Source: Athalassotoga saccharophila
GTDB lineage: Bacteria; Thermotogota; Thermotogae; Mesoaciditogales; Mesoaciditogaceae
Assembly: GCF_009936215.1 (NCBI RefSeq)
Contig: NZ_AP019551.1
Coordinates: 1,512,708-1,576,707 of the forward strand
Length of the DNA stretch: 64,000 bases
Direction: 5' to 3'
Shown: positions 36,642-63,563 of the stretch, one piece after another
How positions within the stretch are numbered: position 1 is the stretch's first letter
Layout of the letters: each line of letters begins with the position of its first letter
Notes under the pieces: model-generated
What the model was told of the DNA's origin: nothing
Seen by the model: the letters and a program-made list of their open reading frames with translations, nothing else
Databases searched by the model: none
Made by a program: the position numbers and the translations under genes

Positions 36642-36656
36642 GAATGGAAAACAAAA

Positions 36657-36680: not shown

Positions 36681-36696
36681 AATATGGATTTTGAAC

Positions 36697-40126: not shown

Positions 40127-40363
40127 AATCCCATCCTCCTATCAATGATCTTCCAAATCCATACTCTTCCATTTCATCCGTGAATGTTATAAAACCATCT
40201 GATTTTATTTCCCTTTCGCTTTCTACAAAGTAAACGCTTCCGGCCGGAACCGCAAGTTTTGACGCACGCGTTTTATTTTTTGCGATATCGAAAGTCGAAA
40301 CTGTTATGCTCTTTGCATTTGCAATCGAGACAAGTTTGCATTTCACACCGTTTATGAATATAT
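40119..40363 (-). pseudogene. cmr3: cmr3 (module A), 3-prime fragment
   Basis: Encodes the last part of Cmr3: NGVKCKLVSIANAKSITVST, then FDIAKNKTRA, VPAGSVYFVE and GFGRSLIGGWD. The fragment aligns with the same region of the intact module-B Cmr3 (YDIAKNKPKMM, VPAGSVYYFE). The gene was cut by the insertion sequence at 40364; joining the flanks with one copy of ATATAT restores a continuous frame (GENIFINGVKCK). A GTG at 40346 could still start a 75-residue product. Confidence 0.9.
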
Positions 40364-46763: not shown

Positions 46764-46767
46764 CTTA

Positions 46768-47853: not shown

Positions 47854-48677
47854 TAAATCACTTCCCTATCAAACATTCTGCCATAACCAACAGTCGTTTT
47901 AGATCCTATTCCATTTTCCTTCAATGCTTTCTGAATGTTTTTTAGAACATAATTTATTACAGTATCATCTGAGTGTACCTTCGTTTTAAATTCTTCAATT
48001 TTTGCATCGCCTTTAATTGCTACCATGAAATAAAATTGTGTGTTATTATCTATTGTAAGGAAGAAAACGGGAATAGGATTATAATAATCAACTGGAAATT
48101 TATTATTTTCTATATAGTAAGGTTGATAGTGAGGATTCAATATATCAACTTTCAATCTTGGTTTTGTAGAGGGGTAGGCATCAAAAAAAATCATTTTCCC
48201 TTCTGTTGCTTTTTTATAAAACGAATTCTCTGGAGATCCGAAAATGTAGCAAAACAATTCATCTTTTAAAGCTTCTTCCTCGGATTTATCAAATATTTCA
48301 TTTATTATGTAACTTCTAACAACACCTTTTATTGATTGTCCCGGAATATAAGGAAATCCAAACACATGATGCAGTGTCATTCCCGTCTCATACACAGATT
48401 CATTTCCAAGGCCAATTACCATTTTACCTTTAATTACGAATTGTTTAGCGATAACTTTATAGTTCCTATTCTTAAAATCATTTTGAATTTCTAAAAGCCT
48501 TTTATTCAAAACATTTAAAATTTCTTCGTTAAAATCGAATTTTATGTTACTAACAGAGAAGTTCTCGTAGTATTCTGGATATTTATTTAATTTCAAACTA
48601 AAATTATCTATTTGTTCTTTTTCTATTTTCTTATTAAATATAAGTGCCATTATATCCTGTGGCAAATATTCGCTCAT
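47853..48677 (-). CDS. cmr6: Cmr6 (module B)
   Basis: A 274-residue paralogue of the module-A Cmr6. Shared blocks are FGFPYIPGQSIKGVVRSYII (about 110-129, PGxSxKG motif), EGKMIFFDAYPS and the terminal GIGSKTTVGYGRMF loop. It is much more AT-rich and Lys/Asn/Ile-rich than its module-A counterpart. It overlaps cmr5B and CARF-A by one base each. Confidence 0.92.
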   Translation of the reverse strand: MSEYLPQDIMALIFNKKIEKEQIDNFSLKLNKYPEYYENFSVSNIKFDFNEEILNVLNKRLLEIQNDFKNRNYKVIAKQFVIKGKMVIGLGNESVYETGMTLHHVFGFPYIPGQSIKGVVRSYIINEIFDKSEEEALKDELFCYIFGSPENSFYKKATEGKMIFFDAYPSTKPRLKVDILNPHYQPYYIENNKFPVDYYNPIPVFFLTIDNNTQFYFMVAIKGDAKIEEFKTKVHSDDTVINYVLKNIQKALKENGIGSKTTVGYGRMFDREVI

Positions 48678-49069
48678 TAATTTTCATCTCCTTCTATCAT
48701 ACTCTCGACAAATCTTTTCATCCACGTTAGTAATGCTATTACTTCATTTGTAATTATTCGATATTCATAGGAATTTTTTCTAATTATTTCACTTATCAAA
48801 TTTTCATTAATAAGTTTTTTGTATATTAGCCATTGTTCAATCTGAACATAAATTTTATTATAAGCAGATTCTTCTCTTTTAGATTCTCCTATTTTAGAAT
48901 TTATAAAAGCCATGGTCGGTCCTAACCCATTTACTTTTATAAGCATCGGAATCTTTTTTACGTATGATTTGTATTTTTTTTGTTCGTCTGGTTTCAAAAT
49001 TTGCTTTGCTTCAAAAACAAAATCATAAGCTTTACTCGCTCTTCCATCTTCTAAAGTCATATCAATCAC
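48677..49069 (-). CDS. cmr5: Cmr5 (module B)
   Basis: A 130-residue helical small subunit. KYKSYVKKIPMLIKVNGLGPTMAF (read as two parts, about 37-60) contains the family N-G-L; RIITNEVIALLTWMKRFVES is the terminal helix. It overlaps cmr4B by four bases and cmr6B by one base. Confidence 0.87.
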   Translation of the reverse strand: MIDMTLEDGRASKAYDFVFEAKQILKPDEQKKYKSYVKKIPMLIKVNGLGPTMAFINSKIGESKREESAYNKIYVQIEQWLIYKKLINENLISEIIRKNSYEYRIITNEVIALLTWMKRFVESMIEGDEN

Positions 49070-50022
49070 CCCAATGTGAGTTTTACTATACCTTTTCCTA
49101 TTGTCGAATTAGCACCTATTTGTAACCTTTTAGGGAAATTGTCGACAAAATATTTTTGAACTAATTTATCGGCAATTACTTCATTTGTTTTCACATTTTC
49201 ATCAAAGAAAAAGGATTTTTGAAATTCATCAATTAAAACAGGAGAGAAAAGAGCCATTGAGTACAACACAGTTTCAGAAGGTAAATATTCTTCGTTGAAT
49301 AATGCTGTACTACTTACCGTTCCAGTTAAATTGTCTATTTTTGTTCTTGTAATTACTTCCGTTGAATTAATGACAAAATCTTTGAAATCATCGTCATTCA
49401 ATACAACCAAATTTGTTTTTAATTTCGACTTTAAAAATGGTTCTTTTTGATCTTTAAAAATCATTTCTGATAATTGTTGAGATAAATCATTATATTTTTG
49501 ATCTTTTTTTACTTCAAAGGCAAATTCTTCTAAGACAACTTTATTATTGTCTATTACTACTTGTGAATTTAACGGAACCCCCTGCTCTGATGGTATTAGG
49601 AGATTATTAGAATAATTCATCATTTCTAAATCTTCTTTAAATCTATTTAAAACTCTCGGGCATGTTATCCATGCGAAGACACCTTTAATGGATTTGACTG
49701 GAAAGAGAAGAATTTTAGCATCAGCAAAACCTATTGCGCTGGCAAAATGTTCTTTATCTTTGAAATTTTCTTTAATAACTTCACTTTCATCTGATGGATC
49801 ATACCCAAATGCGATATGAATTTTTCTTTTTTCATCTTCAGCTTTTGCTCTTTCTTCAAACGCTTCTCTTATACATCCTTTTAAACTCGATCCTTCTATC
49901 TTTGGAAAGTCAGTATGTCTTTCTCTTTGAATAGGAAGATCAATAATTCCAAGATCGCTACCACTTCCAACATGTAAAGGCGTTTCCACATAAATGAAAA
50001 TAGGTTTTGCACTCTTAAACAT
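49066..50022 (-). CDS. cmr4: Cmr4 (module B)
   Basis: A 318-residue RAMP backbone nuclease. VETPLHVGSGSDLGIIDLPI (about 13-32) includes the catalytic Asp; SSLKGCIREAFEE and the terminal GANSTIGKGIVKL follow. Some insertions make it longer than the module-A protein. The ATG used is eight bases after AGGGG; GTG and ATG codons three residues earlier overlap that site. Confidence 0.92.
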   Translation of the reverse strand: MFKSAKPIFIYVETPLHVGSGSDLGIIDLPIQRERHTDFPKIEGSSLKGCIREAFEERAKAEDEKRKIHIAFGYDPSDESEVIKENFKDKEHFASAIGFADAKILLFPVKSIKGVFAWITCPRVLNRFKEDLEMMNYSNNLLIPSEQGVPLNSQVVIDNNKVVLEEFAFEVKKDQKYNDLSQQLSEMIFKDQKEPFLKSKLKTNLVVLNDDDFKDFVINSTEVITRTKIDNLTGTVSSTALFNEEYLPSETVLYSMALFSPVLIDEFQKSFFFDENVKTNEVIADKLVQKYFVDNFPKRLQIGANSTIGKGIVKLTLG

Positions 50023-50034
50023 TTTCATCACCCC

Positions 50035-51144
50035 TTAAATTTTTGATTTATTGATAACTCGTATTTTAGAATTTTTGATAATACTTTCACGGTCTATATA
50101 TGTGCCACCAGAATCTAAATATTTTTGTTCTTCTATTTCCTTGTTAAAAACTTTATATATGTATATGTTATCTTCGATCTCAAAATAAAATATTCTATTA
50201 TTGTTATTTCCATCATCATAAACTATATGTTTACCTTTGCCCTTAATTTCTTTTTTTGATTTTCTTATTTCAGATTTATAGAATTTCTCTTCGAGTATTC
50301 TTTTGATATCTGGCATTTTATTTATGTCATTCCATACCTCGTCAGGACAATAAAAAAAGAATTTTTCGAATTTATATTTATCCCAAAATATCTTCCCCAT
50401 TGGATTTAAATCACATATATCACCTGCATCTTCTATTAACGATGATGCATCTTGCAGAAATTGGCGATTCAGCAGATCTTTTTTACGAGTGGGAAATTGT
50501 TCTAACTTTAGAAATTCACTCTGATATTTTTCAAATATTTCATTATTTATTTTTAATGGAGCTTGAGGTATTTTTATCAATTCTTCTGTTTCTTCAAATT
50601 TGTAATAGATTGGTATTTCATTTATCTGGGCCAATATAGTTAAAAATGGGATTAAACCTTTATACCCTCCAGTAAGATTGAAAACCATATCACCGAAATA
50701 TTGAAATTCTTTATAAAACCAATTTAAAATATTTGGAATTCCTTCTTTTTCGAAGGCTTTTCTATCCTCTACTTGAAGTCCTTTTATGACTTGATTTTTA
50801 TCATTAAAAATCACGTTTATTTTAGGTTTATGATCATAACTTTCGAACCATTTTAAAATTATTTCGCTTGCTATCTTTGAAGTTATCGTATATGTTGATA
50901 TTAAATAAACTTCAAGATCTTCTTTTAAATCTTCTGAGATCTTTATAATGCTAGTTATCTCAGCACTTGCATCTTTTTTCCCCTGTGCCCATTTTAATAT
51001 GTTATTTTCTAAAACCTTCAGTTCTTCTTCCATATTTTCCCATTTATCAATTGAAAGTTTTAACATTTGTAAGTTGGTATTTCCATTATTTTTTCTATAA
51101 TTTTCAATTATAGACGCTCCAACTGTTGAAATGACATTCTTCAT
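50035..51144 (-). CDS. CARF-domain ancillary protein B
   Basis: A 369-residue relative of CARF protein A. The CARF domain (about 1-200) has NVISTVGASIIENYRKN (3-19), MVFNLTGGYKGLIPFLTI (about 151-168) and IPIYYKFEETEELIKIP (about 175-191). The C-terminal portion (FYFEIEDNIYIYKVFNKE near 315) again looks like a small alpha/beta domain that may be RelE-like. It sits inside the cmr operon between cmr3B and cmr4B, so each module has one CARF partner. Ring-nuclease activity is an alternative role. Confidence 0.72.
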   Translation of the reverse strand: MKNVISTVGASIIENYRKNNGNTNLQMLKLSIDKWENMEEELKVLENNILKWAQGKKDASAEITSIIKISEDLKEDLEVYLISTYTITSKIASEIILKWFESYDHKPKINVIFNDKNQVIKGLQVEDRKAFEKEGIPNILNWFYKEFQYFGDMVFNLTGGYKGLIPFLTILAQINEIPIYYKFEETEELIKIPQAPLKINNEIFEKYQSEFLKLEQFPTRKKDLLNRQFLQDASSLIEDAGDICDLNPMGKIFWDKYKFEKFFFYCPDEVWNDINKMPDIKRILEEKFYKSEIRKSKKEIKGKGKHIVYDDGNNNNRIFYFEIEDNIYIYKVFNKEIEEQKYLDSGGTYIDRESIIKNSKIRVINKSKI

Positions 51145-51154
51145 TTTTATCACC

Positions 51155-52192
51155 TCAGTAAAACAAAATTGTTATTCCAAATCCCTCGCTTGAAAGTTCC
51201 TCAGAAATCGACTGATATTGAAAAGCAGATTTTATACTTTCAAAGTCTCCTTTCAATACCTCAAAATAATAAACACTACCAGCAGGGACAAACTTTTTCA
51301 TCATTTTTGGTTTATTTTTGGCAATATCATATCCTCCAGCCATTATCGGTTTGCCAACAACGGCTGTTATAAGTTTTAAATGTAGATTTTTATATTTTCC
51401 TTCAAAATTTTCATCGAGCCATGAAGGAATCCAACCTTTTTTGAAATAGGCAGGGGTCATAAGATATAGTCTTAAATAGTCTTTTAATTCAGATACTCTA
51501 AAAAGTTGTTGGATGCTACGTGGAATTTCTATTTCTTTATAGTAGGCGGCTTTTCCCTCTCCTCCTAATTTAAGAATTCCATTTGTAAGTTCTAATCCAT
51601 CGTAATCTACTAAAAATGATTTTAAAAGATTCGGTCTTACCATTCTTGCTTTATAGAGCCGGCCTTCTTCTTCATCTGTAGTTTTCAATTTGTTCCTTCC
51701 TATTCCTATATGAGTTTCATATTTTATTAAATTTTCTGCTTTAAATAGAGGGCTTTGAGTTACAATACTCGTAATATTAAAATACGAATTCTCAAGGCTT
51801 TCTACTTTTTTATTTACTGGACTTGTTAGTAACTTCGGCAATTTGAAATTTGAATAAAACCTATCAGGCTTTTTATCTAAAACTAATTTAAAAAGTTCAT
51901 TTGAATCGTTTTGATCTTTTGGTAAAACAAAGTCCAATGGAGTTTGCAAAAAGATACTTCCATCTTTATCCTTAAGAAAAACTCCCTTTATCTTTAAGCT
52001 TTTAGTTGGATCTTTGTCAGTATTTACAAATTTAAAACTTTCTGAATGTTCAGAGAAATAAGCTGTCCTGATGGCACCATAAATAGTAGATGGCATTGGT
52101 GGAAATATACTATTAGCCGTGGTTTCTTCACCCATCGTGTACTCTTTTGTATTTCTAAAAAACAGTGTATCAAGAGGTGTTATTTCAATCAT
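51155..52192 (-). CDS. cmr3: Cmr3 (module B), intact
   Basis: A 345-residue RAMP subunit that binds the crRNA 5-prime tag. ITPLDTLFFRNTKEYTMG (about 3-20) is the Cmr3 start, FPPMPSTIYGAIRTAYF (about 27-43) the next block, and GGYDIAKNKPKMMKKFVPAG (about 283-302) plus SSEGFGITILFY the C-terminal loop. The ATG overlaps cmr2B by eight bases; an upstream in-frame ATG (52225) lies inside cmr2B. Because the module-A copy is disrupted, this is the only complete Cmr3. Confidence 0.92.
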   Translation of the reverse strand: MIEITPLDTLFFRNTKEYTMGEETTANSIFPPMPSTIYGAIRTAYFSEHSESFKFVNTDKDPTKSLKIKGVFLKDKDGSIFLQTPLDFVLPKDQNDSNELFKLVLDKKPDRFYSNFKLPKLLTSPVNKKVESLENSYFNITSIVTQSPLFKAENLIKYETHIGIGRNKLKTTDEEEGRLYKARMVRPNLLKSFLVDYDGLELTNGILKLGGEGKAAYYKEIEIPRSIQQLFRVSELKDYLRLYLMTPAYFKKGWIPSWLDENFEGKYKNLHLKLITAVVGKPIMAGGYDIAKNKPKMMKKFVPAGSVYYFEVLKGDFESIKSAFQYQSISEELSSEGFGITILFY

Positions 52193-53873
52193 TTTCAATC
52201 TGCCTCCTAACAAAATCAAGCACATTTAAAATATCAAACAACTCTTCTTTGTTTTTGGTTTGCGAGCAATTGTATAACTCGTAAATACTTTGAACTAATT
52301 TGTCTATTTCTTTTTTCTTTCTTATGTTAAATTCTTCGTCTGTTTCGTGATTTAGCTTTTCCATCATACAAGAACGTTTAACAAGTCTTTCTATTTCACT
52401 TTCAATCATAAGTTGTTCGTTATTTTCATTATCTAAATTTTTAAATTCCATTTGAATTGTTTTTATAAAATTATTGGAAAAATTTGAGGAAGATAGTTCA
52501 AATAAAATGTTATTGAGATAATCTATCATCCATTTATTTTTATCGTTTTTCCATTTGAATCTTGTTTTTAATATCTCACCGGATCCCTTTATTACGGCAA
52601 TGGCTATAGAATCTTTACCAGGATTTTCTTTGGCATAATGTTCCATTTCTCTTGCCCAATTTAAGGAATCATAGAGAGGATCTTTGTAATGTGCAATAGA
52701 TATTCCAGCCGAGAATGTTATGAATTTATCTAATTCAAAATCATTCTTCAATTGATTATTAACTATTTCATCAAAAGCTTTTCTAAGATCTTTTAATGCG
52801 TCAAATATATAGTTGATATTTACAAATCCCAGAAAGTCTTCTCCCCCTGCATAAACTATTTTTCCATATTTGTCATCTATTATTTCTTTAGTTTTTTCGG
52901 CAAATCGTCCAAGAGATTTGGACAATGATTTGTGAAATTCCATCAATTTTTGATTGTCTTTGAGATTTTCTCCTGAAAGTTGCTTACCCATTGAATCACC
53001 ATCAAAGGTTATGATTCCATAGTACTTCGAAAGTTTTAATTTTCTTTCTTTGAATATTTCTTCGTTTTGGAATTTTATATTATCTAAATTAGGAATTAAA
53101 TTCCCAATTCCATTATTTTTAAAGTATCTATCGTTCAAATTTTCTTCGTAAAGTAACTCCGGGTCATATCGTGGCCCAAATACATTCTTGAATTTTATGT
53201 ATTTTTCATCATCTTTCAATTCTTGTATAACATTGTATAAAGCTATTTCTGCCACCGAAGGAAAAGAACTTTCAGAATATTTTCTCTTAGTAAAGCAAAC
53301 TTCGCAAAGAACTTCTCCTTCAGAGAAAGTAAAATCATTTTCTATTCTTACTGCGTCGGGGGTCAAATTTTTTATCACCTTTGAATTGTTGTAAAATTTT
53401 CCAATACGTTCACCACAAACAGAGCATTTTCTAAAACTTGTATCTTCCATTACTTGATTAAAAGTTCTTACATTTTTAACTGAGCCTAATAAAGATTCAA
53501 TTTCACTGAAATTCTTTATGTAATCATTGTATGGAATTGAAACCCAGTGTATGTCAAGAAAATCATAAAAATTAGAAGGATTTTTTATGTGTGTTTTTTG
53601 ATTTATAATTGAAACAAATTTATTTCTAACTTTCTTTTCAAGTGCTTCCCCAAAAAGTTGCGGATCATCAACTGTTATTTTTGCTAAAAATCTATTTGGG
53701 AGAGATTTCATATCTTTATCTGGGAAAATAACTTCTATTTTATCACCGTTGATAGCAAAAGATATTAAATCAGATAATAGAGTACTCCCTCCAAACAAAT
53801 CTCTCGCTTTTCTCGCCTGCGATATAAAAGATTGGACAGGTCCTATTGTAAATAAGAAGAGATATTCGTTCAC
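52185..53873 (-). CDS. cmr2: Cas10/Cmr2 (module B), HD-less with GGED palm
   Basis: A 562-residue short Cas10. It begins at FTIGPVQSFISQARKARDLF (residues 8-27), the point where the Palm region starts in normal Cmr2, so the N-terminal HD nuclease domain is absent. A Cys4 zinc site is present: CSVCGERIG (about 154-162) and EVLCEVCFTKRK (about 190-201). The Palm motif is IVYAGGEDFLGFVNI (about 337-351), GGED instead of GGDD; the acidic pair remains, so nucleotide cyclisation may persist. It lacks DNase but may make signal molecules. The GTG start overlaps cmr1B (GTGA). Confidence 0.9.
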   Translation of the reverse strand: MNEYLFLFTIGPVQSFISQARKARDLFGGSTLLSDLISFAINGDKIEVIFPDKDMKSLPNRFLAKITVDDPQLFGEALEKKVRNKFVSIINQKTHIKNPSNFYDFLDIHWVSIPYNDYIKNFSEIESLLGSVKNVRTFNQVMEDTSFRKCSVCGERIGKFYNNSKVIKNLTPDAVRIENDFTFSEGEVLCEVCFTKRKYSESSFPSVAEIALYNVIQELKDDEKYIKFKNVFGPRYDPELLYEENLNDRYFKNNGIGNLIPNLDNIKFQNEEIFKERKLKLSKYYGIITFDGDSMGKQLSGENLKDNQKLMEFHKSLSKSLGRFAEKTKEIIDDKYGKIVYAGGEDFLGFVNINYIFDALKDLRKAFDEIVNNQLKNDFELDKFITFSAGISIAHYKDPLYDSLNWAREMEHYAKENPGKDSIAIAVIKGSGEILKTRFKWKNDKNKWMIDYLNNILFELSSSNFSNNFIKTIQMEFKNLDNENNEQLMIESEIERLVKRSCMMEKLNHETDEEFNIRKKKEIDKLVQSIYELYNCSQTKNKEELFDILNVLDFVRRQIEND

Positions 53874-54744
53874 TTTATACCACTTCCTTTTTTTATTAAT
53901 TCATTCTTGAAATTTTCTAATTTCTCTTGTTTTACTTCAACGCAACTTGGAGGAGCAGAATGAAGCGTAGTTACAACAGATGAAAATTTGTCATCGCTTG
54001 TCTGTAAAATTGAAACATAGATTGGAGATGCAAATCTACAATAATTATTGCCGTTGATGCGAATAAATGAATGTTTATGGGATGCTTCATCTATAATTCT
54101 TCTAACATCTTCTGCATTATCATTAAAAGATTGACCAATTTCAACTGTTTCTATCCAAGGATACTCAAGTTTTGATTTTTTTAAAACCTTTATTTTTTTA
54201 TTTTCCTCATCTATTTCATAATTAGATGAAATATTTTTAATAACCTTAAAAATATCTTTTAAGTCTATTCCCTGATTTCCTAATTCTTCATTATTTATTT
54301 TTTCTACTTTGAATGACCCATTCCCCTTCTTGCTCTTCTTCCAAGTCCACCTAAATAAGATACAAGTAGGAATAAATTTTTGATGAATTCTTGATTTATT
54401 CTTTTTTTATCATTTATGTAAAAAACAACCTTAAATTGTTGCTTTATTAAACCATTCAATTTAAACGACTTATGAGGTAACAGAGTATATTCTTGATTTT
54501 GTACATTTTCTTTGTTTTCAATAACGATCGAAAAACTACTCTTTTTAGGGTTATCATCAACGCCACCAAACAAATTTTTTTCTTTTTCTTTCATTTCATT
54601 AATTTCAAGATCACTGTTAATCGCTCTCCACCAGAATCGCATCGCTGCCTTAATGGATGTTTCTCTCAATTCAGGAACTTTTTTATCCACCCCAAAAAGA
54701 AACATTGGAGTTATTATCTTACATTCAAAGGTTATACTTTCCAA
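53870..54744 (-). CDS. cmr1: Cmr1 (module B), interrupted by a frameshift
   Basis: The first 146 codons give a Cmr1 start (CKIITPMFLFGVDKKVPELR, IKAAMRFWWRAINS) and reach the glycine/arginine loop LGGLGRRARRGMGHSK before a stop at 54304. The expected continuation lies in the other frame: GNGSFKVEKINNEELG and on through SFIRINGNNYCRFASPIYVS to HSAPPSCVEVKQEKLENF, ending at 53870 exactly in a GTGA overlap with cmr2B. One extra G in the GGGG run (54323-54326, minus strand) would read RARRGNGSF, the normal loop. Total length would be about 291 residues. Start is TTG after AGGGGG. It may be a mutation, a sequencing error or slippage. Confidence 0.85.
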
Positions 54745-54759
54745 ATTAATTACCCCCTT

Positions 54760-54782
54760 TCAAATTCATTAATCACACTTTA
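54760..54782 (-). promoter_or_regulatory. AGTGTGATTA element, copy 5 (cmr1B)
   Basis: Minus-strand AGTGTGATTA (54770-54779) immediately after the CYTH-CARF-HD stop codon, followed by ATGAATTTGAAAGGGGG, whose end is the cmr1B ribosome-binding site. No terminator precedes it. Confidence 0.6.
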
Positions 54783-57341
54783 TGACTCTATTGCCAAATT
54801 TTTCAGTTTTTCATTGGCAAGTTGAAGGCCAGAACTTTTAAATTCATTATTTATATCTTTTTTTATATCTTTTACTATATCTTCTACTTTCTCTTCTGGC
54901 ACTTTCTTTTCAGGATATACTTTGATGTAAAGCGTTTCTTCTTTTGGATTGTAAAATTCTGGCATTATACTTTTTACAGCCTGATGCTTTTCGAAATGCT
55001 GAAATTGTCTTGATTTGAAGGCTATTCTGTCGGCCTTTTTTATGTATTCATCTATGAATATCACTTTTTTATCCGCGACATTTTCGAGATTCGATCTTAT
55101 TTCTTTGTATACAATATCTTCTATTTCACAAGCAACATTGTCTAAAGCCTTCCAATCTTGCGCGTCAAGATATTCGAGCGTTTTTAATATTTTTTCGGTC
55201 ATATCCAATTTGGAAAGCATCGAATTATTTGCAAGAAAGTCATAGCACAAACTTTCTATTTCGTCTTTTGTTCTTTGAACTCTTATTTGAGTGTATTCAT
55301 CCATGACGGTTCTGTCTGACTGGACATCTGTCGAGTCTATGAATTTAAGCCATCTTGCCGCAAGCATTATCATCTTTTTCCATTCTTTGGAATTTTTAAA
55401 CAATTCGTCTTCATTCAATCTTGCCTCGAGAGATTTTATCTTTATCTTGAGATTATCTATGAAACCTTTGCGAGAAGGATTTTCATTTTCGCCTATAGGA
55501 AGGTACTGTCTGTGGTATTTGCTTACGTACATTATGGCCTTCTTAAGTCTTGCGATTTTTTCTTTATCTTCATCTATTTTTTCTATTCCATCCAAAAGAT
55601 TCTCATTCTCTATCAACTGATAACTCAATTCACTGTGCAAATCTCTCACAACGCTCGGAAGACCATCAATGCTAAATTCAATTCCATTATCCGTTGTGTA
55701 ATTAAGAACTGTATGGCCTAAATCATGAATGTTCATCGCCACGGCAAGAATGAAATAGAATTCTTTTCTAAGATCGGGATTAACTCCGTTCAAGAAATTT
55801 TCTTCTCCCATAATTCTTACAAGGTTGAATCCGAATTCCATTAGTCTTTTGCTGTGTCTTTGAGAATGTTCGACCGTTTCGGGAATAAGATCTCCTATCC
55901 ATCTCAAACTCCAGATCGGAATTTTTTCATTAACAAAGTTTATCATCTTGTCGTCTCTTATAAGATCTATGAAATTTTTCCCGTGACCGAATGGTAATTT
56001 GCGGGCATTATCGTAATTCGCTTTTATCTCGTTCAATATTGGAACAGTTATAAGTTGTCCTTCTGGAGAAATGGAAAAAAGTTCCTTTAAAAACTCTGGC
56101 AAAATCACAAAAATATTGTAATTTATAATTTCTCCATTTTGGACCTTTGAAGATATTAAATCGAAATATGGGCTGTAATCGTCAATGGTCTCATTGTTCC
56201 ATCCAATAGGGAGAGGGGGGAATTTTAACTGAACCATTTTCTGTTCACTGATACCATCTGTTATCTCATTTTTCTGCTTGTAATAAAATGCTTTTTTGTT
56301 AAAAAGGCTGTAAATGGCAAGTTCTATCCCCGGGTATTTCTGCCCCCCTGTTAAGTCGATTAACGTATTTCGACCATCTTTATTATCATCTGCAACTTTT
56401 GAAATAACGTCAAATATTTCACGAAGAGATTTGTAAGCAGAATCTTGACTTGAAGAATCATAATTTATCGGTGAATAAGAGCATTCTAACCCAAATATTC
56501 TATTTACCGCCTCTTTAAGAAGAGTATAATCATGAGGATAGTCTTTACCTTTTTCAAAAGATGGAAAGACAAGAAAATGCACTTTTTCCACTTCAAAACC
56601 GCTTTTTATGAAAAGGTACAAGGCATCTATTTCTCCGATAAATTCTCTGTATTTGTTCGATTTGGTTAATTCTTCTAAACGTACATTAAAATTTTTATCT
56701 TTTCCCGCCCCTTGTCCTTGGGTCATAATGACCGTCACAGGACCTATGAGTCTATTTTGGACATATTCGATAATCTTAAGAGGTTTTATTTCTCGCTTTT
56801 TAGCCTTATAAAAGTTTTGATACGATTTTTCTTTTGTCAAATCCTTAACGTCTGTGATCTCAAGTCCGATGCCTTTTAATTCATTCTCGAAATATGAATC
56901 GTCTTTATCTTCTTTGGTTTCGATTTCAAGGTAATACAATCCCGGATCATCATTTTTTAGTATATCCTTGTTGTCTATTTCCAAAAATTCGTCAAGAAAT
57001 ATTTCCGGATTTTCTTTGATTATGTATCTTATCTTTACAACGTTTTTCTTTTTTTCTAAATCAGATAGATTTATATCTTTTCGTGGATCCAGAAAATCTT
57101 TTGTTTCGAATCTTTTTTCTGGATTATCTGTGAGTGTTTTGGTTGCTTTTTCCCAGACATGTGTATGGCCTATCACTTCGTCGTAAGAAATAGTTAGCCT
57201 TATACGCTTTTGAGGGTTTTCTGTCTCTTCGTACCATTGAATTATTCCGATCTTTTTAATGCTGTTGTGCTTCAAACGCTCGATCTTTTCGCGATCTTCG
57301 AGAAGATATTTTCTTTCAATTTCTTTAGTTTCTTCGGTCAT
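54780..57341 (-). CDS. CYTH-CARF-HD multidomain signalling protein
   Basis: An 853-residue protein with three domains in an unusual order. Residues 1-185 form a CYTH (triphosphate tunnel) domain: EIERK (7-11) is the ExExK signature, KRIRLT and KIRYII supply basic strands and LYYLEIETKE (136-144) a late acidic strand. Residues 195-375 look like a CARF domain: VTVIMTQGQGAGKD, VHFLVFPSFEKG and the ligand loop LIDLTGGQKYPG (327-338). Residues 485-700 hold an HD phosphohydrolase: EHSQRHSKRL (491), NIHDLGHTVLN (537-547) and DLHSELSYQL (567). CYTH enzymes hydrolyse or cyclise triphosphates, CARF binds cyclic oligoadenylate and HD cleaves phosphodiesters, so the protein may sense, degrade or make nucleotide signals. 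The start follows GGAGGT; an element AGTGTGATTA is upstream. Confidence 0.72.
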   Translation of the reverse strand: MTEETKEIERKYLLEDREKIERLKHNSIKKIGIIQWYEETENPQKRIRLTISYDEVIGHTHVWEKATKTLTDNPEKRFETKDFLDPRKDINLSDLEKKKNVVKIRYIIKENPEIFLDEFLEIDNKDILKNDDPGLYYLEIETKEDKDDSYFENELKGIGLEITDVKDLTKEKSYQNFYKAKKREIKPLKIIEYVQNRLIGPVTVIMTQGQGAGKDKNFNVRLEELTKSNKYREFIGEIDALYLFIKSGFEVEKVHFLVFPSFEKGKDYPHDYTLLKEAVNRIFGLECSYSPINYDSSSQDSAYKSLREIFDVISKVADDNKDGRNTLIDLTGGQKYPGIELAIYSLFNKKAFYYKQKNEITDGISEQKMVQLKFPPLPIGWNNETIDDYSPYFDLISSKVQNGEIINYNIFVILPEFLKELFSISPEGQLITVPILNEIKANYDNARKLPFGHGKNFIDLIRDDKMINFVNEKIPIWSLRWIGDLIPETVEHSQRHSKRLMEFGFNLVRIMGEENFLNGVNPDLRKEFYFILAVAMNIHDLGHTVLNYTTDNGIEFSIDGLPSVVRDLHSELSYQLIENENLLDGIEKIDEDKEKIARLKKAIMYVSKYHRQYLPIGENENPSRKGFIDNLKIKIKSLEARLNEDELFKNSKEWKKMIMLAARWLKFIDSTDVQSDRTVMDEYTQIRVQRTKDEIESLCYDFLANNSMLSKLDMTEKILKTLEYLDAQDWKALDNVACEIEDIVYKEIRSNLENVADKKVIFIDEYIKKADRIAFKSRQFQHFEKHQAVKSIMPEFYNPKEETLYIKVYPEKKVPEEKVEDIVKDIKKDINNEFKSSGLQLANEKLKNLAIES

Positions 57342-57360
57342 TCTCCACCTCCGACTTAAT

Positions 57361-57383
57361 TTCAAATTTTATAATCACACTAT
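57361..57383 (-). promoter_or_regulatory. AGTGTGATTA element, copy 6 (CYTH-CARF-HD)
   Basis: Minus-strand AGTGTGATTA (57372-57381) contains the stop codon of the AAA+ gene (GTG TGA) and is followed by TAAAATTTGAAATT, 30 bases before the CYTH-CARF-HD start. Confidence 0.6.
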
Positions 57384-58757
57384 TTCAAAATCTTTCTCAA
57401 GTATGCAATCACGACCGTCTATGTATGCGTTCATTATTGCCTCTTTGACAAGACTTTCGAGTTCTCTGAAATTTCCAGGATAGTCGTACCTTTCAAGTTT
57501 TTCTATCGCCTTTAAACTTATCCTTTTGATCTCTTTTTCTTTTTGGAGAGAAGTTAACTGATCCTGAAGGACAAAACTCAGAATATATCTGAAATCACTT
57601 TTTCTCTCTTTCAAAGACGGTATTCTAATAGAATAATCAAATCTCTCAAACAGGTCTCTTCTGAAATTTCCGGTTTCTATCTCTTTTTTGATATCTTTAT
57701 TCGTTGCCGCTATGATCATCACGGGCACCTTTAACCCCCGAGGATCGGAATATCCATCTATCGTTACTTTCATATCATCTAAATACGTTAAAAGTTTTGC
57801 CTGAATCTTTTCACTTATTTCACCTATTTCATCCAAAAAAATAACTCCGCCCGTGTTTGAAAGAAATTTCCCCATCTTGTAAAGGCTTCCGGTAAAGGAT
57901 CCCGGAAAGGTTCCGAAGAGTTCAGAATCGACTATTGTTTCGGAAATGTTGACAAGGGTAACTTTTGCAAAGTGATCTTCAAAGTCATTTTCTAAGAATT
58001 TGCGCGCTATGTATTTTGCAAAGAGTGTTTTTCCGCTGCCGGTAGGTCCGGTTATCAATATGGAAGGCAATTTCCCAATTGAAAGTTCTTTCGATTTATT
58101 GTTTATTTCTCCAAAAATTTTTTGAACTTTGCTTAGTTCTTGAGTGTTGGAGTTTTCTAATTTTTTTAATTCATCTATTGCGCTCTTAACATCTTTCCTG
58201 AATTTTTGAAATTGTTTTGCCGTAGATTTTAATGACTCAACGATTCTGTTGGCTTTAAAGATGACAGAGCGCATATTTTCATCTGAGAACATGGATATGA
58301 ATTTTTCTTTAGAATAATTGGAAAGATCTATTTTCCAGTTTACCGGCTTGGACATTTCCGACTCTAAAAATCGAGTGCTTAATTTATCACGGACAAGTCT
58401 TTTTAGAACGTCTTCGAATCTTGCCATCTCAGAATACTCTTTTCTTTCACCGTAAAATCTTTTAACATCGAAGATGGCGTAAACGTAAGATCTTTGCTGG
58501 GCATTAACGACTGCCCTTTCATTCAATTCACCATCGACAAGATATATCTTGTTCATGATCTTATCTTTCTCATCATTTGATTCTTTTACGATAACTATGT
58601 CATTTTTATCGAACTTGGATGGAAATTCATCCACAGGGCAAAATTCAACTTTACCTTCTATATCCGGCTTGTTTTTCAAAATGACATTTATTAGTTCTTC
58701 TACAGGCTTGTCATCTTCACAATCGCATTTAACGTAAAAAATCTTAATCTTGTCCAT
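57375..58757 (-). CDS. Sigma54-activator-type AAA+ ATPase without a DNA-binding domain
   Basis: A 460-residue protein. Residues 1-225 are an unrecognised regulatory part with a possible alpha/beta start (KIKIFYVKCDCED) and a coiled-coil-like stretch (170-225). Residues 228-440 are a complete bacterial enhancer-binding-protein ATPase: Walker A GPTGSGKT (236-243), ELFGTFPGSFTGS (279-291, matching ELFGxxxGAFTGA), Walker B VIFLDEIGE (305-313), AATNKD (350-355), FRRDLFERFD (365-374, Arg fingers) and YPGNFRELE (426-434). The chain ends at 460 with no Fis-type helix-turn-helix. The GAFTGA loop normally contacts sigma54; here the neighbour is an atypical RNA polymerase, so promoter opening for that enzyme is a plausible role. 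RtcR-like proteins are the closest known analogy. Confidence 0.8.
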   Translation of the reverse strand: MDKIKIFYVKCDCEDDKPVEELINVILKNKPDIEGKVEFCPVDEFPSKFDKNDIVIVKESNDEKDKIMNKIYLVDGELNERAVVNAQQRSYVYAIFDVKRFYGERKEYSEMARFEDVLKRLVRDKLSTRFLESEMSKPVNWKIDLSNYSKEKFISMFSDENMRSVIFKANRIVESLKSTAKQFQKFRKDVKSAIDELKKLENSNTQELSKVQKIFGEINNKSKELSIGKLPSILITGPTGSGKTLFAKYIARKFLENDFEDHFAKVTLVNISETIVDSELFGTFPGSFTGSLYKMGKFLSNTGGVIFLDEIGEISEKIQAKLLTYLDDMKVTIDGYSDPRGLKVPVMIIAATNKDIKKEIETGNFRRDLFERFDYSIRIPSLKERKSDFRYILSFVLQDQLTSLQKEKEIKRISLKAIEKLERYDYPGNFRELESLVKEAIMNAYIDGRDCILEKDFEIV

Positions 58758-59598
58758 TTTTACCACCTAAATGTTTGAGTATATTTTTGAACTCATCATT
58801 TTTATTTAAATTCTCAAAAAAAGTGTCTTCGGTAAATGTTTTTTCTTCTGATGATCTTAGAATTTCATTCAAAATTTCCAGCACAGAATTTGTCTTTCTA
58901 AGGCAATCTCCGTTTAAAGATTTGGAGTCTAATTTTATGAAATCATCTTTGAGTTTTTGAGATTTACCTATACCGATTCTAAAAAGCGTCATTGCGAGAG
59001 TCTTGACATTTGGCTTACCGTTGAAGGTCAGGGCAGAGATTTTGACATCGACACCGTCCCAGAATCTCATGTAATAACTGAGAAAGTGTCTGTTGGTTTT
59101 GTTTTTAATATCGGTAGAATTTTCATTCACCTTCAAAAGCATCTCGGATTTGAACCGTTCGTAAAAATCTTCTCTGCGCGGATTTTCAAAGTCGTAAAAT
59201 CCATTTGCGTAACTTTCTATCACCGACGCGGCTTTCGAAAAGTTCTCAAAACTGTTGTGTTTGAAGTAAGATGTTTCTTTATCATTACCATAACCTTTAA
59301 AGCCATAATGGATAACCCTGAATTTTTCACCCTTTAAAATTAAAAGGACTGTTTTTATCTTTGGAGGATATTTGGGAAGTTCCAAATTCAAAATATCAAG
59401 ATTTAGAGATGTATCTTTTTGACTTTGATCGTCATTTTCATCTTCTGTGTATATCTCTTCATCTTCATTTTCATCGTAATCGAGTAAATCTTCTTTTGAA
59501 AGCGATGACTCGATAGGTGAAGATTTTTTTAGATCTTTCCTTGAGAATTTGTTTTTTTCTTTTTCTTTTTGCGTTTGCCTAATTTTATTCTTTTCCAT
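58744..59598 (-). CDS. Unknown acidic protein encoded between polymerase and ATPase
   Basis: A 284-residue protein with no family I can name. Residues 1-30 are Lys-rich (EKNKIRQTQKEKEKNKFSRK), residues 35-70 strongly acidic (DYDENEDEEIYTEDENDDQ) and likely disordered. From about 75 there is a folded part with KTVLLILKGEKFRVIHYG, FLSYYMRFWDGVDVKISALT (about 160) and helices to the end, in two lobes. It overlaps the polymerase end by 14 bases and the ATPase start by 14 bases, so the three genes are translationally coupled. The context suggests a subunit, initiation factor or anti-factor of the polymerase. The ATG is chosen because GGAGG lies nine bases upstream. Confidence 0.6.
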   Translation of the reverse strand: MEKNKIRQTQKEKEKNKFSRKDLKKSSPIESSLSKEDLLDYDENEDEEIYTEDENDDQSQKDTSLNLDILNLELPKYPPKIKTVLLILKGEKFRVIHYGFKGYGNDKETSYFKHNSFENFSKAASVIESYANGFYDFENPRREDFYERFKSEMLLKVNENSTDIKNKTNRHFLSYYMRFWDGVDVKISALTFNGKPNVKTLAMTLFRIGIGKSQKLKDDFIKLDSKSLNGDCLRKTNSVLEILNEILRSSEEKTFTEDTFFENLNKNDEFKNILKHLGGKNGQD

Positions 59599-62500
59599 CC
59601 AAGATCGCCTCCACTTCGTCTGGCAAAAGTGCATAAATGGACTTTGGAGATCTCTCCTCTATCCGATCGATCTTTTCAAACGCTTTTGCTATATTGCTTT
59701 TCTTTATGCCGTTTTCTTTCTTTCCAGGAGGATTTTCGAAACTCAAAGCAGAGAAGAAACCATAGTTTTTAAGATCTGTGAGATACTTTTTCATCTGGCC
59801 TTCTGTTTCTATTTTGTTATTCTTCATGTACATAAACAATATTTCAAGGTAGATGGATGATACGTCTATCGTCTTTAAAAGCCATTCTTTCTTGTCTGAG
59901 TCTTTGCCGGTCATCAACTTTATCAAATCTTCATTTGCGAGATTTACAAGGTAATCAACAAAACTTTTCTCCATTCTTCTGAAAAATCTGCTCGATACCG
60001 CAGACATTTTGAAATCCGACTTACTTGTCTGGAAGGTCTTCATTGACAGTTGAGTGCCACGTTCTCCTATCGTGTGTCCCGATATCACGCCTATGAAGTC
60101 TCCGATTCTAAAACTTTCATCTGAAGTGGAAGGATTTATGCCGCAGCACTTTTCGCAGGGACCATTTTCTGACTTGCATGTTACAGGGCTTCTGAGTATA
60201 AAACCATCTGTTGCTTTTTCTTTCATTTCTTTTAAATTGTCAAAGTTAACAAGTACCCACTCTTCATCTTCTTTGAATTTTATGTATCTTCCATTTATAA
60301 TTCTTTCTATATCGTACTTCCCGACTAATTTTTCGATATCTGTTTTTGTGAATTCTATCCCTTCATTCGTTCCACAATCGTGGGAAGAGATTCTGAGAGG
60401 ATATAAGAATTCGACCATCTTTCTTGTGAAATATCCCGCTTCGGCGACGTGCAATTTTTTGTCAAGCATTGACTTCCTTCCTCGTACGGCAAGACAACTG
60501 TCAAAATTCTCGAGACCATTTCCTATGTAAAATTCGAGAGGAATTCCATTAGAGAAATTTCCTATGTTTTGATCTCCTATCTTTATCTCTTTGTAAATGG
60601 ACTGGAAATTTTCGGCCTTTCCTCTTGCCTTCGATTCCTCGATCTTTTTGATGTCCCCCATTCCACCTTTAGCCTCGAAGAATGACACGCTTAAATTTTG
60701 GGATGTTGCAATTTCAAGCATTTCTTTTTGTATGTCGAGAAGTTTCTCTGGCACATCTTTGTGGGATAATATTATCTCTTTTATCTTTTCGGAAAGGTTG
60801 GAATTTTTATCTTTCAAATAATTTCCATAGGTCATATCCTGTGAGATCGAAATTGAAAAATCTCTGTTTCCAATCTTGAAAAGATGATTCGAAGGTGTCA
60901 TCTTTTTCATCGTTGATCTGATCTTCTCGTTCTGATCGGAAGGATAATACACGGCCATCGTATCCCCGTCAAAATCGGCTCCGAATCCTTCGCACACCAT
61001 TATTGGAAGACCTATGGCGTAATTTTCCCAGAAGATCGGATAAAAAGCCTGTATGCTATGAAGATGAAGGGAAGGCTGACGGTTTAGAAGTACCATAATT
61101 TCATTTAATTTGCAATAAGAATTGGCAATGTCAGCGAACTCTCTTCTTTTGATCATGTCCCCTTCAAGAATAGATCTTTCGTTTTCAAACTTAAGATTAA
61201 ACCATTCGAGGGCGAAATCAACGGGGAGATAAACGTGATCTACGTCTATATCCGTTGCAGGAACTATCGTTGCGCGACCGGAATAATGAATCCTTCTTCC
61301 GAGCATTGCCGTACGCGGGAATCCATCTTTTGATATCAAAAATTTTGCCTCTTTATAGGCCTTACCCTTTCTATCTTTTATCATATCCAAAATTTCTTCA
61401 TTTTTATCGTCCTTTAAGCCGTCTAATTTTTGAACAAAGAGTTTTCCGCCCTCCTTTAAAGGCCTTATCGTGAAATTGTGGTACTCATCCAAAAGTGTGT
61501 TGAAGGAGTTCAAGTATTTATAATATTCTTTCCATCGGGTAAGATTCGTTTTTGCAAAGAGTTGTATTACCGGTATCGCCTTATGATCGAATAAGGTCCA
61601 AAATTCCATCTCTCCTATTCTCTGGCCACCATTGTTTTTACGTCCCTTGTAGGGCTGAAATGTTATTTCTGAAATATGCTTTGTATGTCCGATGACGTGG
61701 AGTTTGTCCCTTACACAATGATCCAAGCGCACAAAATACTGGTATCCGACAATCGCGCTAAAGACAGTTTCCTTTCCGTTGACTTTGACATGCAGTGGAA
61801 ATTTTCCATTTTCATCGCCGCCAAGCGCTTTAAGTTGTGAGATCAATTTGTCAGGATCGACTTTAGAATCAACACTTCCATCTGTAAAGTTTACAAGCGT
61901 ACCATGGGTCTCTATCAACTGACCAAGATTCATTCTTGTAATTATTCCGAATGGACTGAGAATAAGATCGAGGATCTTTTTCTTCCCGTCTATCTCGACG
62001 TAGGGCATTTCTTCATCTTCGAGTATTCTCGAAATAGTTCCTTTGTTTCCATATCTACCAGTTATTTTGTCTCCAACCTCAAGTGGTTTTTCAACTTTTA
62101 CGGGTATTCTTATCGTCAAATGACTCATGGAAATCATTTCTTTTACAAGCGGAGGAGTTATATCTCCTATTTCAAAACAATCCTTTGTTATGTTCAAAGT
62201 ATATGTGTACCTTTGATCAAATAAAAAAGACCTTTTCAAATCTTTGTTTTCATTTCCATCAAAAAATACCCTTCTCCTAAGATAAAGATCGCCATACACA
62301 ACATTTTGAGTTTTGACGAATTCATAAACAATCTCAATAGATTTTCCGCTTTGAACTTTCGATTGTATGACAAACTTCTTTGTACTTCTGCCAGATTCAA
62401 TTATTTCATAATCGATTGGAAGCGGGACTTCATCTTCTATTTTCAGTTCTTCTCTCGATTCTATCTTCATCTTTTGAGAGAATGATTTTGAGGCGACTAT

Positions 62501-63448
62501 TCCATCCTCAAAATTAAGACCATCAAAGAGTGCATATCCGACAAAAGCATTTACTCCTAAATCGAAGCCAATTTGGTCTTCAATGCCAGTCTTAACGATG
62601 GGTTTTTCACTTCCAACGACTCTAATGGCCTGCTTTAAGTTTTTTCCTCCCATCATTGCCCTTGGCGTGTCATTGTAAGTTAAAAATGGAACGAGTAAAG
62701 TCGAATAACTGAAAAAATCATTAGAACTTTTGATATCTGAATCTATGGCCAATTTTTTAGCGTTGTACCTTGCGCCGAGAGACAAAAACAAAGAAAGGCC
62801 TATCTCTTCTGATTCAGGGCTTTCGAGTAGATCTATCTTCCCAAGATGTGATTTGTGTGGATATCTCATCGTGTCTGCAACAACGCTTCCATGGTACACT
62901 ACTTTTCTTGTGTTGGAAATCTTAAGCAATGGATTTGATTCGTCAAGTTCAAAAAGAGAGGGAATTCTTACAAACCGTTTTGATTCTGGATCTATTTTAT
63001 GAATCTTCGTTCCTATCTCTACCGTGCTTAAATTTGCCGAGATCATGTACTCAAAAAGTTCAGATTCATCTTTGAATTGAAGTGCACGATCGTAAGAACT
63101 CATTATCTGAATGGCCTTATCCAAAAAATATCCAGGAATCACGAAAAAATTCTTTAGATCCATGTTTTTTACCTGTTCTTTCAATTGTTCAGGTTTTTCG
63201 ATAAGCACAAATGGAGAATAATAATTCTTTCCCATCCATTTGTAAATTCCATCATTTGGAATCAGGCAAAGGAATTCGACCTCTAACGGATCGTAAATCC
63301 TTGAGTTGATTTGTAATTTGACGATTTTGTATAACTCATCCTTAATAAAAAAATTACTTGTAGAGATTATCTTTAGAGCGTCGTAGTTGAAAACTTTGGG
63401 CCTGTAATTAGAAATAAAAAAATTTAATCCATCGAATATTTCTTCCAT
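59585..63448 (-). CDS. Single-chain DNA-directed RNA polymerase: fused compact beta and beta-prime cores
   Basis: A 1287-residue protein containing, in order, the hallmark blocks of both large RNAP subunits. Beta part: HKSHLGKIDLLESPESEEIG (198-217), NDTPRAMMGGKNLKQA (259-274), FDGLNFEDGIVAS (308-320), GDKITGRYGNKGTISRI (459-475), PFGIITRMNLGQLIETHG (499-516), NNGGQRIGEMEFWTL (605-619). Beta-prime part: GRRIHYSGRATIV (717-729), LLNRQPSLHLHSIQAF (787-802), GADFDGDTMAVYYP (823-836, catalytic Asp triad), VRGRKSMLDKKLHVAEAGYF (988-1007), DCGTNEGI (1024-1031), then CKSENGPCEKC (1091-1101, zinc ligands with C1025) and GHTIGERGTQLSMKTFQT (1124-1141). It is less than half of normal beta plus beta-prime. 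Only about 100 residues separate GEMEFW from GRRIHYSGR, so the N-terminal zinc finger and sigma-binding clamp helices of beta-prime are missing. An ATT at 63469, eight bases after AGGAGG, could be the real start, adding seven residues. Confidence 0.93.
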   Translation of the reverse strand: MEEIFDGLNFFISNYRPKVFNYDALKIISTSNFFIKDELYKIVKLQINSRIYDPLEVEFLCLIPNDGIYKWMGKNYYSPFVLIEKPEQLKEQVKNMDLKNFFVIPGYFLDKAIQIMSSYDRALQFKDESELFEYMISANLSTVEIGTKIHKIDPESKRFVRIPSLFELDESNPLLKISNTRKVVYHGSVVADTMRYPHKSHLGKIDLLESPESEEIGLSLFLSLGARYNAKKLAIDSDIKSSNDFFSYSTLLVPFLTYNDTPRAMMGGKNLKQAIRVVGSEKPIVKTGIEDQIGFDLGVNAFVGYALFDGLNFEDGIVASKSFSQKMKIESREELKIEDEVPLPIDYEIIESGRSTKKFVIQSKVQSGKSIEIVYEFVKTQNVVYGDLYLRRRVFFDGNENKDLKRSFLFDQRYTYTLNITKDCFEIGDITPPLVKEMISMSHLTIRIPVKVEKPLEVGDKITGRYGNKGTISRILEDEEMPYVEIDGKKKILDLILSPFGIITRMNLGQLIETHGTLVNFTDGSVDSKVDPDKLISQLKALGGDENGKFPLHVKVNGKETVFSAIVGYQYFVRLDHCVRDKLHVIGHTKHISEITFQPYKGRKNNGGQRIGEMEFWTLFDHKAIPVIQLFAKTNLTRWKEYYKYLNSFNTLLDEYHNFTIRPLKEGGKLFVQKLDGLKDDKNEEILDMIKDRKGKAYKEAKFLISKDGFPRTAMLGRRIHYSGRATIVPATDIDVDHVYLPVDFALEWFNLKFENERSILEGDMIKRREFADIANSYCKLNEIMVLLNRQPSLHLHSIQAFYPIFWENYAIGLPIMVCEGFGADFDGDTMAVYYPSDQNEKIRSTMKKMTPSNHLFKIGNRDFSISISQDMTYGNYLKDKNSNLSEKIKEIILSHKDVPEKLLDIQKEMLEIATSQNLSVSFFEAKGGMGDIKKIEESKARGKAENFQSIYKEIKIGDQNIGNFSNGIPLEFYIGNGLENFDSCLAVRGRKSMLDKKLHVAEAGYFTRKMVEFLYPLRISSHDCGTNEGIEFTKTDIEKLVGKYDIERIINGRYIKFKEDEEWVLVNFDNLKEMKEKATDGFILRSPVTCKSENGPCEKCCGINPSTSDESFRIGDFIGVISGHTIGERGTQLSMKTFQTSKSDFKMSAVSSRFFRRMEKSFVDYLVNLANEDLIKLMTGKDSDKKEWLLKTIDVSSIYLEILFMYMKNNKIETEGQMKKYLTDLKNYGFFSALSFENPPGKKENGIKKSNIAKAFEKIDRIEERSPKSIYALLPDEVEAILDGKE

Positions 63449-63534
63449 GGAAAAATCAATTTCATTAATAGAAATCGCCTCCTATTTTTAAAATGAATTT
63501 TATTTATCTTTAAAAAAGAAGTTTACAGAACTAA

Positions 63535-63563
63535 ATTATAACATTTCTAAATCATAATTTAAA
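63535..63563 (-). promoter_or_regulatory. Sigma-A-like promoter of the polymerase operon
   Basis: On the minus strand TATAAT (63535-63540) with a weak TTTAAA (63558-63563) at 17-base spacing, 87 bases before the ATG. The AGTGTGATTA element is absent here, so the polymerase would be made by the house-keeping enzyme. The rest of 63470-63634 contains the 5-prime leader and the promoter of the divergent gene. Confidence 0.5.

Follow-up and report, generated by a model that had tools for sequence, protein, structure and literature searches.

To our knowledge, bacteria use one RNA polymerase (RNAP) core and vary the sigma factors, and additional polymerases that serve a particular regulon are a phage trait. 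The sigma-54 activators, which are textbook systems, are relevant to this work as well. The YonO protein of Bacillus phage SPbeta has no more than a few residues in common with cellular RNAP, and its promoter sequence was not determined in the published study (PMC5467207). The nvRNAP and vRNAP of phage P23-45 are one-chain enzymes of the two-barrel type that have promoter motifs of their own, and vRNAP has no clamp (PMC10770324). In this work, we describe a compact single-chain RNAP that is encoded in a defence island of the bacterium Athalassotoga saccharophila, a member of the Thermotogota, together with an AAA+ ATPase and a third protein. The window, which is the whole stretch of DNA that was analysed, comprises 64,000 nt of contig NZ_AP019551.1, and all coordinates below refer to it. 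The findings point to a self-contained second transcription machine that is encoded by the host and that serves a CRISPR (clustered regularly interspaced short palindromic repeats) and defence regulon through private promoters, a reading to which we assign a probability of about 0.68. Locus names (L###), genome names (G###) and the family names f7 and f10 are labels of this analysis.

The compact polymerase and its operon partners

The operon and its promoter comprise the following features.

59585..63448, (-): single-chain compact RNAP (Pfam, NCBIfam and PDB profile matches; catalytic motifs intact, clamp helices and first zinc-binding domain (ZBD1) absent)
58744..59634, (-): third operon protein, here called the middle protein, 296 aa, start perhaps at 59598, always between the polymerase and the AAA+ ATPase
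57375..58766, (-): AAA+ ATPase of the NtrC/bacterial enhancer-binding protein (bEBP) type, with a receiver-like N-terminus and the loop GSFTGS and without a helix-turn-helix (HTH) domain (Sigma54_activat, 2e-35; AlphaFold2 (AF2) model; motifs in homologues)
63535..63563, (-): sigma-70-type promoter TTTAAA-17-TATAAT (extended -10) ahead of the operon, by consensus match only

The polymerase open reading frame (ORF) encodes 1287 aa without an internal stop. The beta-like part spans residues ~55-640 and the beta-prime-like part spans residues ~690-1240 according to the Pfam, NCBIfam and PDB profiles. Four Pfam domains were matched in this single chain, which are RNA_pol_Rpb2_6 (1e-37), Rpb1_2 (4e-19), Rpb1_5 (2e-13) and Rpb2_3 (5e-5). 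The catalytic blocks of the beta-like part are MGGKNLKQ at residue 266 and GDKITGRYGNKG at 459, and they are followed by YSGR at 722, NRQPSLH at 789, GADFDGD at 823, the bridge-helix block GYFTR at 1005 and the trigger-loop block GERGTQ at 1128. The occurrence of GDK..GRYGNKG, GADFDGD, GYFTR and GERGTQ in this order, together with the Pfam matches, places the protein in the two-barrel (double-psi beta-barrel) RNAP superfamily. The host genome also encodes an ordinary rpoB (1146 aa) and an ordinary rpoC (1666 aa), so the compact enzyme is a second polymerase.

The family profile was compared with the host's own subunits, where it covers residues ~453-1103 of RpoB and parts of residues ~567-1336 of RpoC. 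Both double-psi barrels, the GADFDGD metal site, the bridge helix and the trigger loop are kept. There is no counterpart for RpoC 1-566 (first zinc domain, lid and clamp) or RpoB 1-452. The clamp-helix RNNRL and ZBD1 motifs were found only in the host RpoC and are absent from all single-chain enzymes examined, and a beta flap tip is not recognisable in the compact polymerase. The protein thus lacks the separate subunits, the sigma-binding clamp helices and the flap tip of a canonical bacterial RNAP core. With the catalytic motifs intact and these regions missing, the alignments indicate an enzyme whose catalytic machine looks intact and whose sigma-70-binding surfaces look lost.

The AF2 model of the AAA+ ATPase (predicted local distance difference test score, pLDDT, 83) matches NtrC1 (1ny5) across both the receiver and the AAA+ part, with a Z score of 25.8 over 354 residues. 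Walker A is kept in the homologues, and the GAFTGA-like loop, Walker B and the arginine finger are kept in nearly all of them. These are hallmarks of bEBPs, but the C-terminal HTH of bEBPs was found in none of the homologues and the chain stops at the AAA+ lid. The phosphorylatable aspartate of the receiver is apparently unconserved, as read from the alignment. The PADLOC profile RtcR_PspF2 (CARF-AAA-HTH) matches the AAA+ region (1.7e-52). A CARF N-terminus, which this match might imply, was rejected because the model fits NtrC1 with a receiver instead, where the AAA+ part dominates the list of structure matches.

The middle protein has a basic N-terminus, an acidic linker and a C-terminal domain. 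The acidic stretch after the N-terminus was found in 57% of the Thermotogota members, 91% of the Synergistota members and 80% of the others, at a threshold that is reached by 0.9% of 1001 other ORFs. Neither Pfam nor the PDB gave a relative. Sigma-54 has an acidic region behind its activator-binding N-terminus, and the layout of the middle protein, with an acidic linker past the N-terminus, is suggestive of a resemblance. The middle protein may be the compact polymerase's own initiation factor.

The three genes are conserved as an operon. In Thermotogota, where 28 loci were mapped, all 25 loci with enough DNA exhibit the order polymerase, middle gene (180-314 aa) and AAA+ on the same strand; these 25 include the decayed copy at L046. 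The same order was found in 12 Synergistota loci and in single loci of Methylobacter, Desulfobulbaceae, Victivallales and Nitrospirae, where the three genes of the Synergistota loci L058, L230 and L232 are visible after antisense frames were unmasked. The middle protein ranges over ~180-380 aa across all groups. In every Synergistota locus with its 5' side available, the gene directly upstream of the polymerase encodes a CARF-HD protein, and this gene mostly abuts or overlaps the polymerase start. It also abuts the polymerase in Thermotogota L029 and L031, and in the window a CARF-CYTH-HD gene is the next gene after the AAA+ gene. CARF-HD joins the polymerase operon in both main phyla, Thermotogota and Synergistota.

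Variants of these partners were also observed. A second AAA+ of this kind is encoded at L060:1767-4298, 4 kb from a full system, where it is accompanied by an upstream gene of 383 aa and by no polymerase. The 383-aa protein was considered as a member of the middle-protein family and was left uncounted, since the acidic linker is missing. The AAA+ of Nitrospirae L064 has a C-terminal NUDIX-like stretch (a weak match), and the polymerase of Methylobacter L059 has an N-terminal one.

The original prediction, which was made from the sequence alone, had placed both sets of RNAP signatures, including GADFDGD, in one 1287-residue chain, and the Pfam profiles and the motifs agree with this. Its view that most catalytic blocks are near those of bacterial RNAP and that the beta-prime clamp helices are missing was borne out by the alignment to the host RpoB and RpoC and by the motif check. 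The AAA+ ATPase, the CARF protein and two cmr modules (48.7-54.7 kb and 38.2-46.8 kb) do lie on the same strand as described; that list of neighbours named the genes and omitted the 296-aa gene between the polymerase and the AAA+ ATPase as well as the CARF-CYTH-HD identity. Its end coordinate, 63469, would be explained by an in-frame ATT at that position, upstream of the ORF and 8 nt past an AGGAGG, which may be the true start of the polymerase.

Promoter-like elements and the defence island

A 24-nt element, AAAGTGTGATTA-NNN-AATTTGAAA, was identified at the 5' ends of defence genes. All genome-wide tests of the elements were done as pattern searches. The element, which can also be written as AAAGTGTGATTA-N6/7-TGAAA, has five copies in the window where 0.13 are expected. 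In the 2.04-Mb genome, five sites were found at up to three mismatches, all inside the island, and the reversed control gave none. All five elements are on the gene strand, and the start codon lies 36-52 nt from the 5' end of the element. The five private promoter-like elements and one partial copy are listed here with the gene that each of them precedes.

57360..57383, (-): CARF-HD gene
54758..54781, (-): cmr1, with its cmr operon
36618..36641, (-): darT
33168..33191, (-): UDG-like gene
33507..33530, (-): 50-aa ORF (33326-33478)
38144..38167, (-): cas6 (partial copy that comprises the first half of the element)

The genes that follow these elements, and the modules around them, form the island.

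54780..57365, (-): CARF-CYTH-HD protein, real start probably an ATG near 57341 (PADLOC CARF_CYTH_HD, 1.3e-127)
48677..54744, (-): type III-B module with cmr1, cas10/cmr2 (GGED), cmr3, a CARF gene, cmr4 and cmr5
38159..47853, (-): second cmr module, split by a transposase at 40539-42185, with a GGDD-bearing cas10 and a CARF gene
37365..38111, (-): cas6 (PF01881, 3.6e-34)
35958..37485, (-): darT and macro-domain pair (PF14487, 3e-34; PF01661, 1.5e-12)
32376..33173, (-): gene of the uracil-DNA glycosylase (UDG) superfamily under a private element (PF03167, 2e-6)

GGDD is the Cas10 motif for cyclic-oligoadenylate synthesis. The transposase at 40539-42185 is of the DDE type and is inserted between cmr3 and cmr4 of the second module. 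The CRISPR arrays of the window were considered as targets of the element and were rejected, as their leaders carry a sigma-A-like promoter instead.

Elements were also found in other genomes. G069 and G073, which belong to another family, have the same element ahead of darT and of two small ORFs, beside the polymerase. Other genomes exhibit the AAAGTGT core with other following blocks, which are AAATG in G035, GTGTA in G012, ACTTA in G084 and GCATA in G014. The block is constant within a genome and different between polymerase lineages. G098, which carries two compact polymerases, has two blocks behind AAAGTGT (GTATA and ATACA). Across 24 carriers, 28 of 224 genome-wide sites of the general pattern lie within 40 kb of a polymerase where 4.4 are expected, an optimistic figure because the pattern was derived partly from these loci. 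The sites found later by block recurrence are a cleaner test, and they lie on two Cas10 contigs and ahead of Cas4 and a helicase in G014, ahead of Cas6 in G098 and on the Cas10 contig of G012. A sigma-70-like promoter is within reach at only 2 of 24 element sites, whereas a good one precedes the polymerase operon. Recurrent blocks in fifteen relatives that lack the polymerase are, among the matches listed, identical or near-identical multi-copy repeats. Repeated elements were also sought in the islands of Synergistota, f7 and f10, and none were found.

Some elements lie near CRISPR sequences. In G012, a GC-rich hairpin lies behind the element (end of L292, start of L291), and its AAAACCCC..GATCGACG part is shared with all three CRISPR leaders of the window, upstream of the arrays that end at 9681, 23526 and 35210; the hairpin near the CRISPR leaders has no Rfam match. 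In G021, an element lies ~60 nt ahead of a CRISPR-repeat-like sequence. On contig C1 of G035 (L293:4200-4300), the CRISPR spacer AACAACGTAAAAGTGTAAATGTACACTTTGAGGAGTAAG between two perfect repeats holds the element with the AAATG block. As this is G035's own block, an invader carrying the element was probably met. Two pattern searches for viral contigs bearing the element gave 3 and 0 matches in 2.9 million contigs, and these were taken as chance.

The association of the polymerase is with defence islands generally (cas, CARF, DarT and argonaute) and not with type III alone. Genes for cas or CARF proteins lie near 21 of the 28 Thermotogota loci, and Cas10, Cas6 or Cas1 homologues are present in several Synergistota loci. 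A clear Cas10 is absent in several carriers, such as G061 and the complete genome G070, and strict dependence on type III CRISPR was ruled out on this ground. Thermotogota L039 and L041 have an argonaute (MID/PIWI) gene and a TOTE-type primase-polymerase gene beside the compact polymerase, where the domains were tested for L039. At Nitrospirae L064:2721-5566, the neighbours of the long polymerase form include a reverse transcriptase-Cas1 fusion and a CRISPR array.

Distribution, proposed mechanism and rival explanations

Relatives of the polymerase, some of them incomplete, were identified in 27 of 101 Thermotogota-class genomes searched. A scan of the genomes of 84,980 species identified relatives in Synergistota, Methylobacter, Desulfobulbaceae, Victivallales, Jettenia and one Nitrospirae genome, and five of these share the operon order. 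The signature pattern was found in 15 of 188 Synergistota genomes and in only 2 of 395 from Desulfobacterota, where one of the two is an already known locus. The tree of the conserved core exhibits three clades, which are viral fused, canonical and cellular single-chain (SH-aLRT, the Shimodaira-Hasegawa-like approximate likelihood ratio test, 90). Most members of the cellular single-chain clade have AAA+ partners. This clade has the signatures MG[AG]KN[LM][KR]Q and GERGTQ, where the host canonical enzyme has MGSNMQRQ and GEPGTQ.

Among the viral contigs (loci L128-L207), single-chain beta/beta-prime polymerases of ~2000 aa form a large clade. The trigger-loop GERGTQ is absent from both viral fused polymerases inspected, and the 80 viral loci exhibit no AAA+ neighbour of this kind beyond one weak match. 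The signature MG[AG]KN[LM][KR]Q has no true polymerase among 2.9 million viral contigs, and the phages and plasmids searched hold no relative with more than 80% coverage. The compact enzyme is thus in a clade separate from the phage fused RNAPs with no true viral member by signature, and an origin inside the viral fused clade was ruled out by the tree and the signature scan. Polymerase lengths range from ~2300 aa in the near-canonical forms (Nitrospirae and Jettenia) to ~1240 aa in Thermotogota. The long Nitrospirae and Jettenia members sit on short branches, and the greatest compactness is seen in Thermotogota. This pattern suggests that the family arose by reduction from a beta/beta-prime fusion. 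A decayed polymerase copy at L046 (G064:C9) still has its AAA+ and lies in the same context as the intact L030.

The reading of a second transcription machine stands on the anatomy of the polymerase and its partners, on the gene linkage and on the island-unique elements at the 5' ends of defence genes. From these we infer promoter recognition, DNA opening and signal input, which would proceed as follows. The housekeeping enzyme would transcribe the RNAP operon from the sigma-A promoter. Elements of the general pattern AAAGTGT-N4-R-(N6/7)-TGRA would then be bound by the compact polymerase, with the middle protein as its probable initiation factor. The AAA+ ring, which has no DNA-binding domain, would engage the initiation complex through the GAFTGA-like loop and would spend ATP on opening the DNA in the manner of sigma-54 activators. 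The pseudo-receiver domain and the linked CARF-HD protein, which would sense or remove the cyclic oligoadenylates made by Cas10, would gate this step. Infection would thereby induce cas genes, DarT, nucleases and small ORFs without recourse to the host polymerase, which is the usual phage target. That a cellular one-chain polymerase, an AAA+ opener, an initiation factor and lineage-specific promoters provide cyclic-oligoadenylate-triggered immunity despite a phage-disabled host polymerase is a tentative proposal, which we rate at somewhat under even odds.

Several observations weigh against the reading of a dedicated defence polymerase. A recognisable element is missing in about half of the Thermotogota carriers and in all Synergistota, and no elements lie near the polymerase gene in the carriers of families f7 and f10 and in G061, G079, G011, G023 and G004. 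One or two elements persist in congeners in which no compact polymerase was detected (G001 and G002, congeners of the host, and G021, a congener of G035). The general pattern of the element was derived in part from loci on which it was later tested. Homology of the middle protein across phyla was not detectable, its comparison with RpoN by hhalign gives a probability below 1% (no homology to sigma-54), and its AF2 model has a pLDDT of only 45. Lastly, L061 has the polymerase and the middle gene but no AAA+.

The polymerase-less congeners with elements and the many carriers without them would be expected if the elements serve the housekeeping RNAP with another island regulator, where the compact polymerase transcribes something else, such as invader DNA or one long operon. 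We consider this unlikely, since the block varies by RNAP lineage and is constant per genome, the two-polymerase genome G098 has two blocks, the sites sit beside the polymerase gene and 22 of the 24 have no sigma-70-like promoter. The AAA+ could also be an ordinary sigma-54 activator that steers the island through the housekeeping RNAP-sigma54, with the odd polymerase merely adjacent, as the GAFTGA-like loop is retained and rpoN is present in the host and most carriers. However, no homologue has an HTH, and the AAA+ and polymerase genes stay together across phyla. A clear rpoN is missing in at least five Thermotogota carriers (G011, G023, G074, G084 and G098) and in Synergistota G102, all of which keep the polymerase and the AAA+. 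With the caveat of draft assemblies, the AAA+ cannot act through sigma-54 in these carriers, and this explanation is very improbable.

The polymerase could instead be a domesticated or passenger enzyme of a mobile element with defence cargo, where the elements are its promoters and the CRISPR link is hitch-hiking. The patchy distribution (27 of 101 genomes), the transposase within the island, the decayed copy in G064 and the spacer of G035 that points to an element-carrying invader are consistent with this. It is nevertheless improbable in view of the absence of the clade from the viral contigs and of high-coverage relatives from phages and plasmids, and in the mapped loci the compact polymerase has no structural or integrase gene as a recurrent neighbour; cas genes themselves are also preceded by elements. 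The least probable explanation, with a very slim chance, is that the enzyme, like the eukaryotic RNA-dependent RNA polymerase (RdRP) QDE-1, is RNA-dependent or template-independent and serves to amplify crRNA targets or to produce a signal. The two-barrel fold class does include RdRPs such as QDE-1 (PMC10770324) and the neighbourhood has many CARF genes, but the sequence blocks are close to those of bacterial DNA-dependent RNAP and the AAA+ that constantly accompanies the polymerase is of the promoter-opening type.

On the latter ground, the suggestion of the original prediction that the enzyme copies RNA or makes a signal found no support. Its proposal of a dedicated, sigma-independent defence polymerase agrees with the operon partners, the absence from viral contigs and the island-private elements, where the independence holds only for contacts of the sigma-70 type. 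The link to type III CRISPR that it drew was broadened, because cas and CARF neighbours are usual and several carriers have no clear Cas10. It had also held that homologues in prophages or without CRISPR neighbours would speak against it; no viral member was found, and CRISPR or CARF neighbours recur in Thermotogota, Synergistota and the Nitrospirae genome.

Comparison with known systems

The papers searched, which cover the field in part, contain no description of a polymerase that a host encodes together with a dedicated activator and with private promoters for immunity. If true, the reading of a second transcription machine would mean a new principle of gene control, with a host-encoded polymerase devoted to immunity and a natural escape from phage takeover of transcription. 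It would also provide a compact, thermophilic and promoter-specific polymerase. The series from ~2300 aa to ~1240 aa documents the way in which a polymerase can be reduced in size, and the system suggests that bacteria can turn on immunity through a transcription machine reserved for it.

YonO is similar to the compact polymerase in being a single-chain two-barrel RNAP from the multi-subunit family that serves a dedicated gene set (PMC5467207). However, YonO is phage-borne, whereas the compact polymerase is cellular and has an AAA+ and a third protein. The compact polymerase also keeps long RNAP blocks, with far more extensive similarity than the published description of YonO indicates for that protein. 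The viral fused RNAPs such as those of P23-45 are also one-chain two-barrel enzymes (PMC10770324), but they are viral, form a separate clade (~2000-aa forms were sampled) and have no AAA+ neighbour.

The island AAA+ shares the AAA+ ring, the GAFTGA-like loop, the Walker motifs and the arginine finger with the bEBPs NtrC1, PspF and RtcR, and it shares the receiver-like N-domain with NtrC1. It differs from the sigma-54/bEBP systems in that it has no HTH, its partner is the compact RNAP and some carriers have no rpoN. Only the AAA+ part is similar to the CARF-AAA-HTH architecture of PADLOC RtcR_PspF2, since the island protein has a receiver-like modelled N-terminus and no HTH. The island also resembles type III systems with CARF accessory effectors in having a CARF-CYTH-HD gene near the operon and a Cas10 with GGDD, but here the accessory includes a whole transcription machine and not a nuclease.

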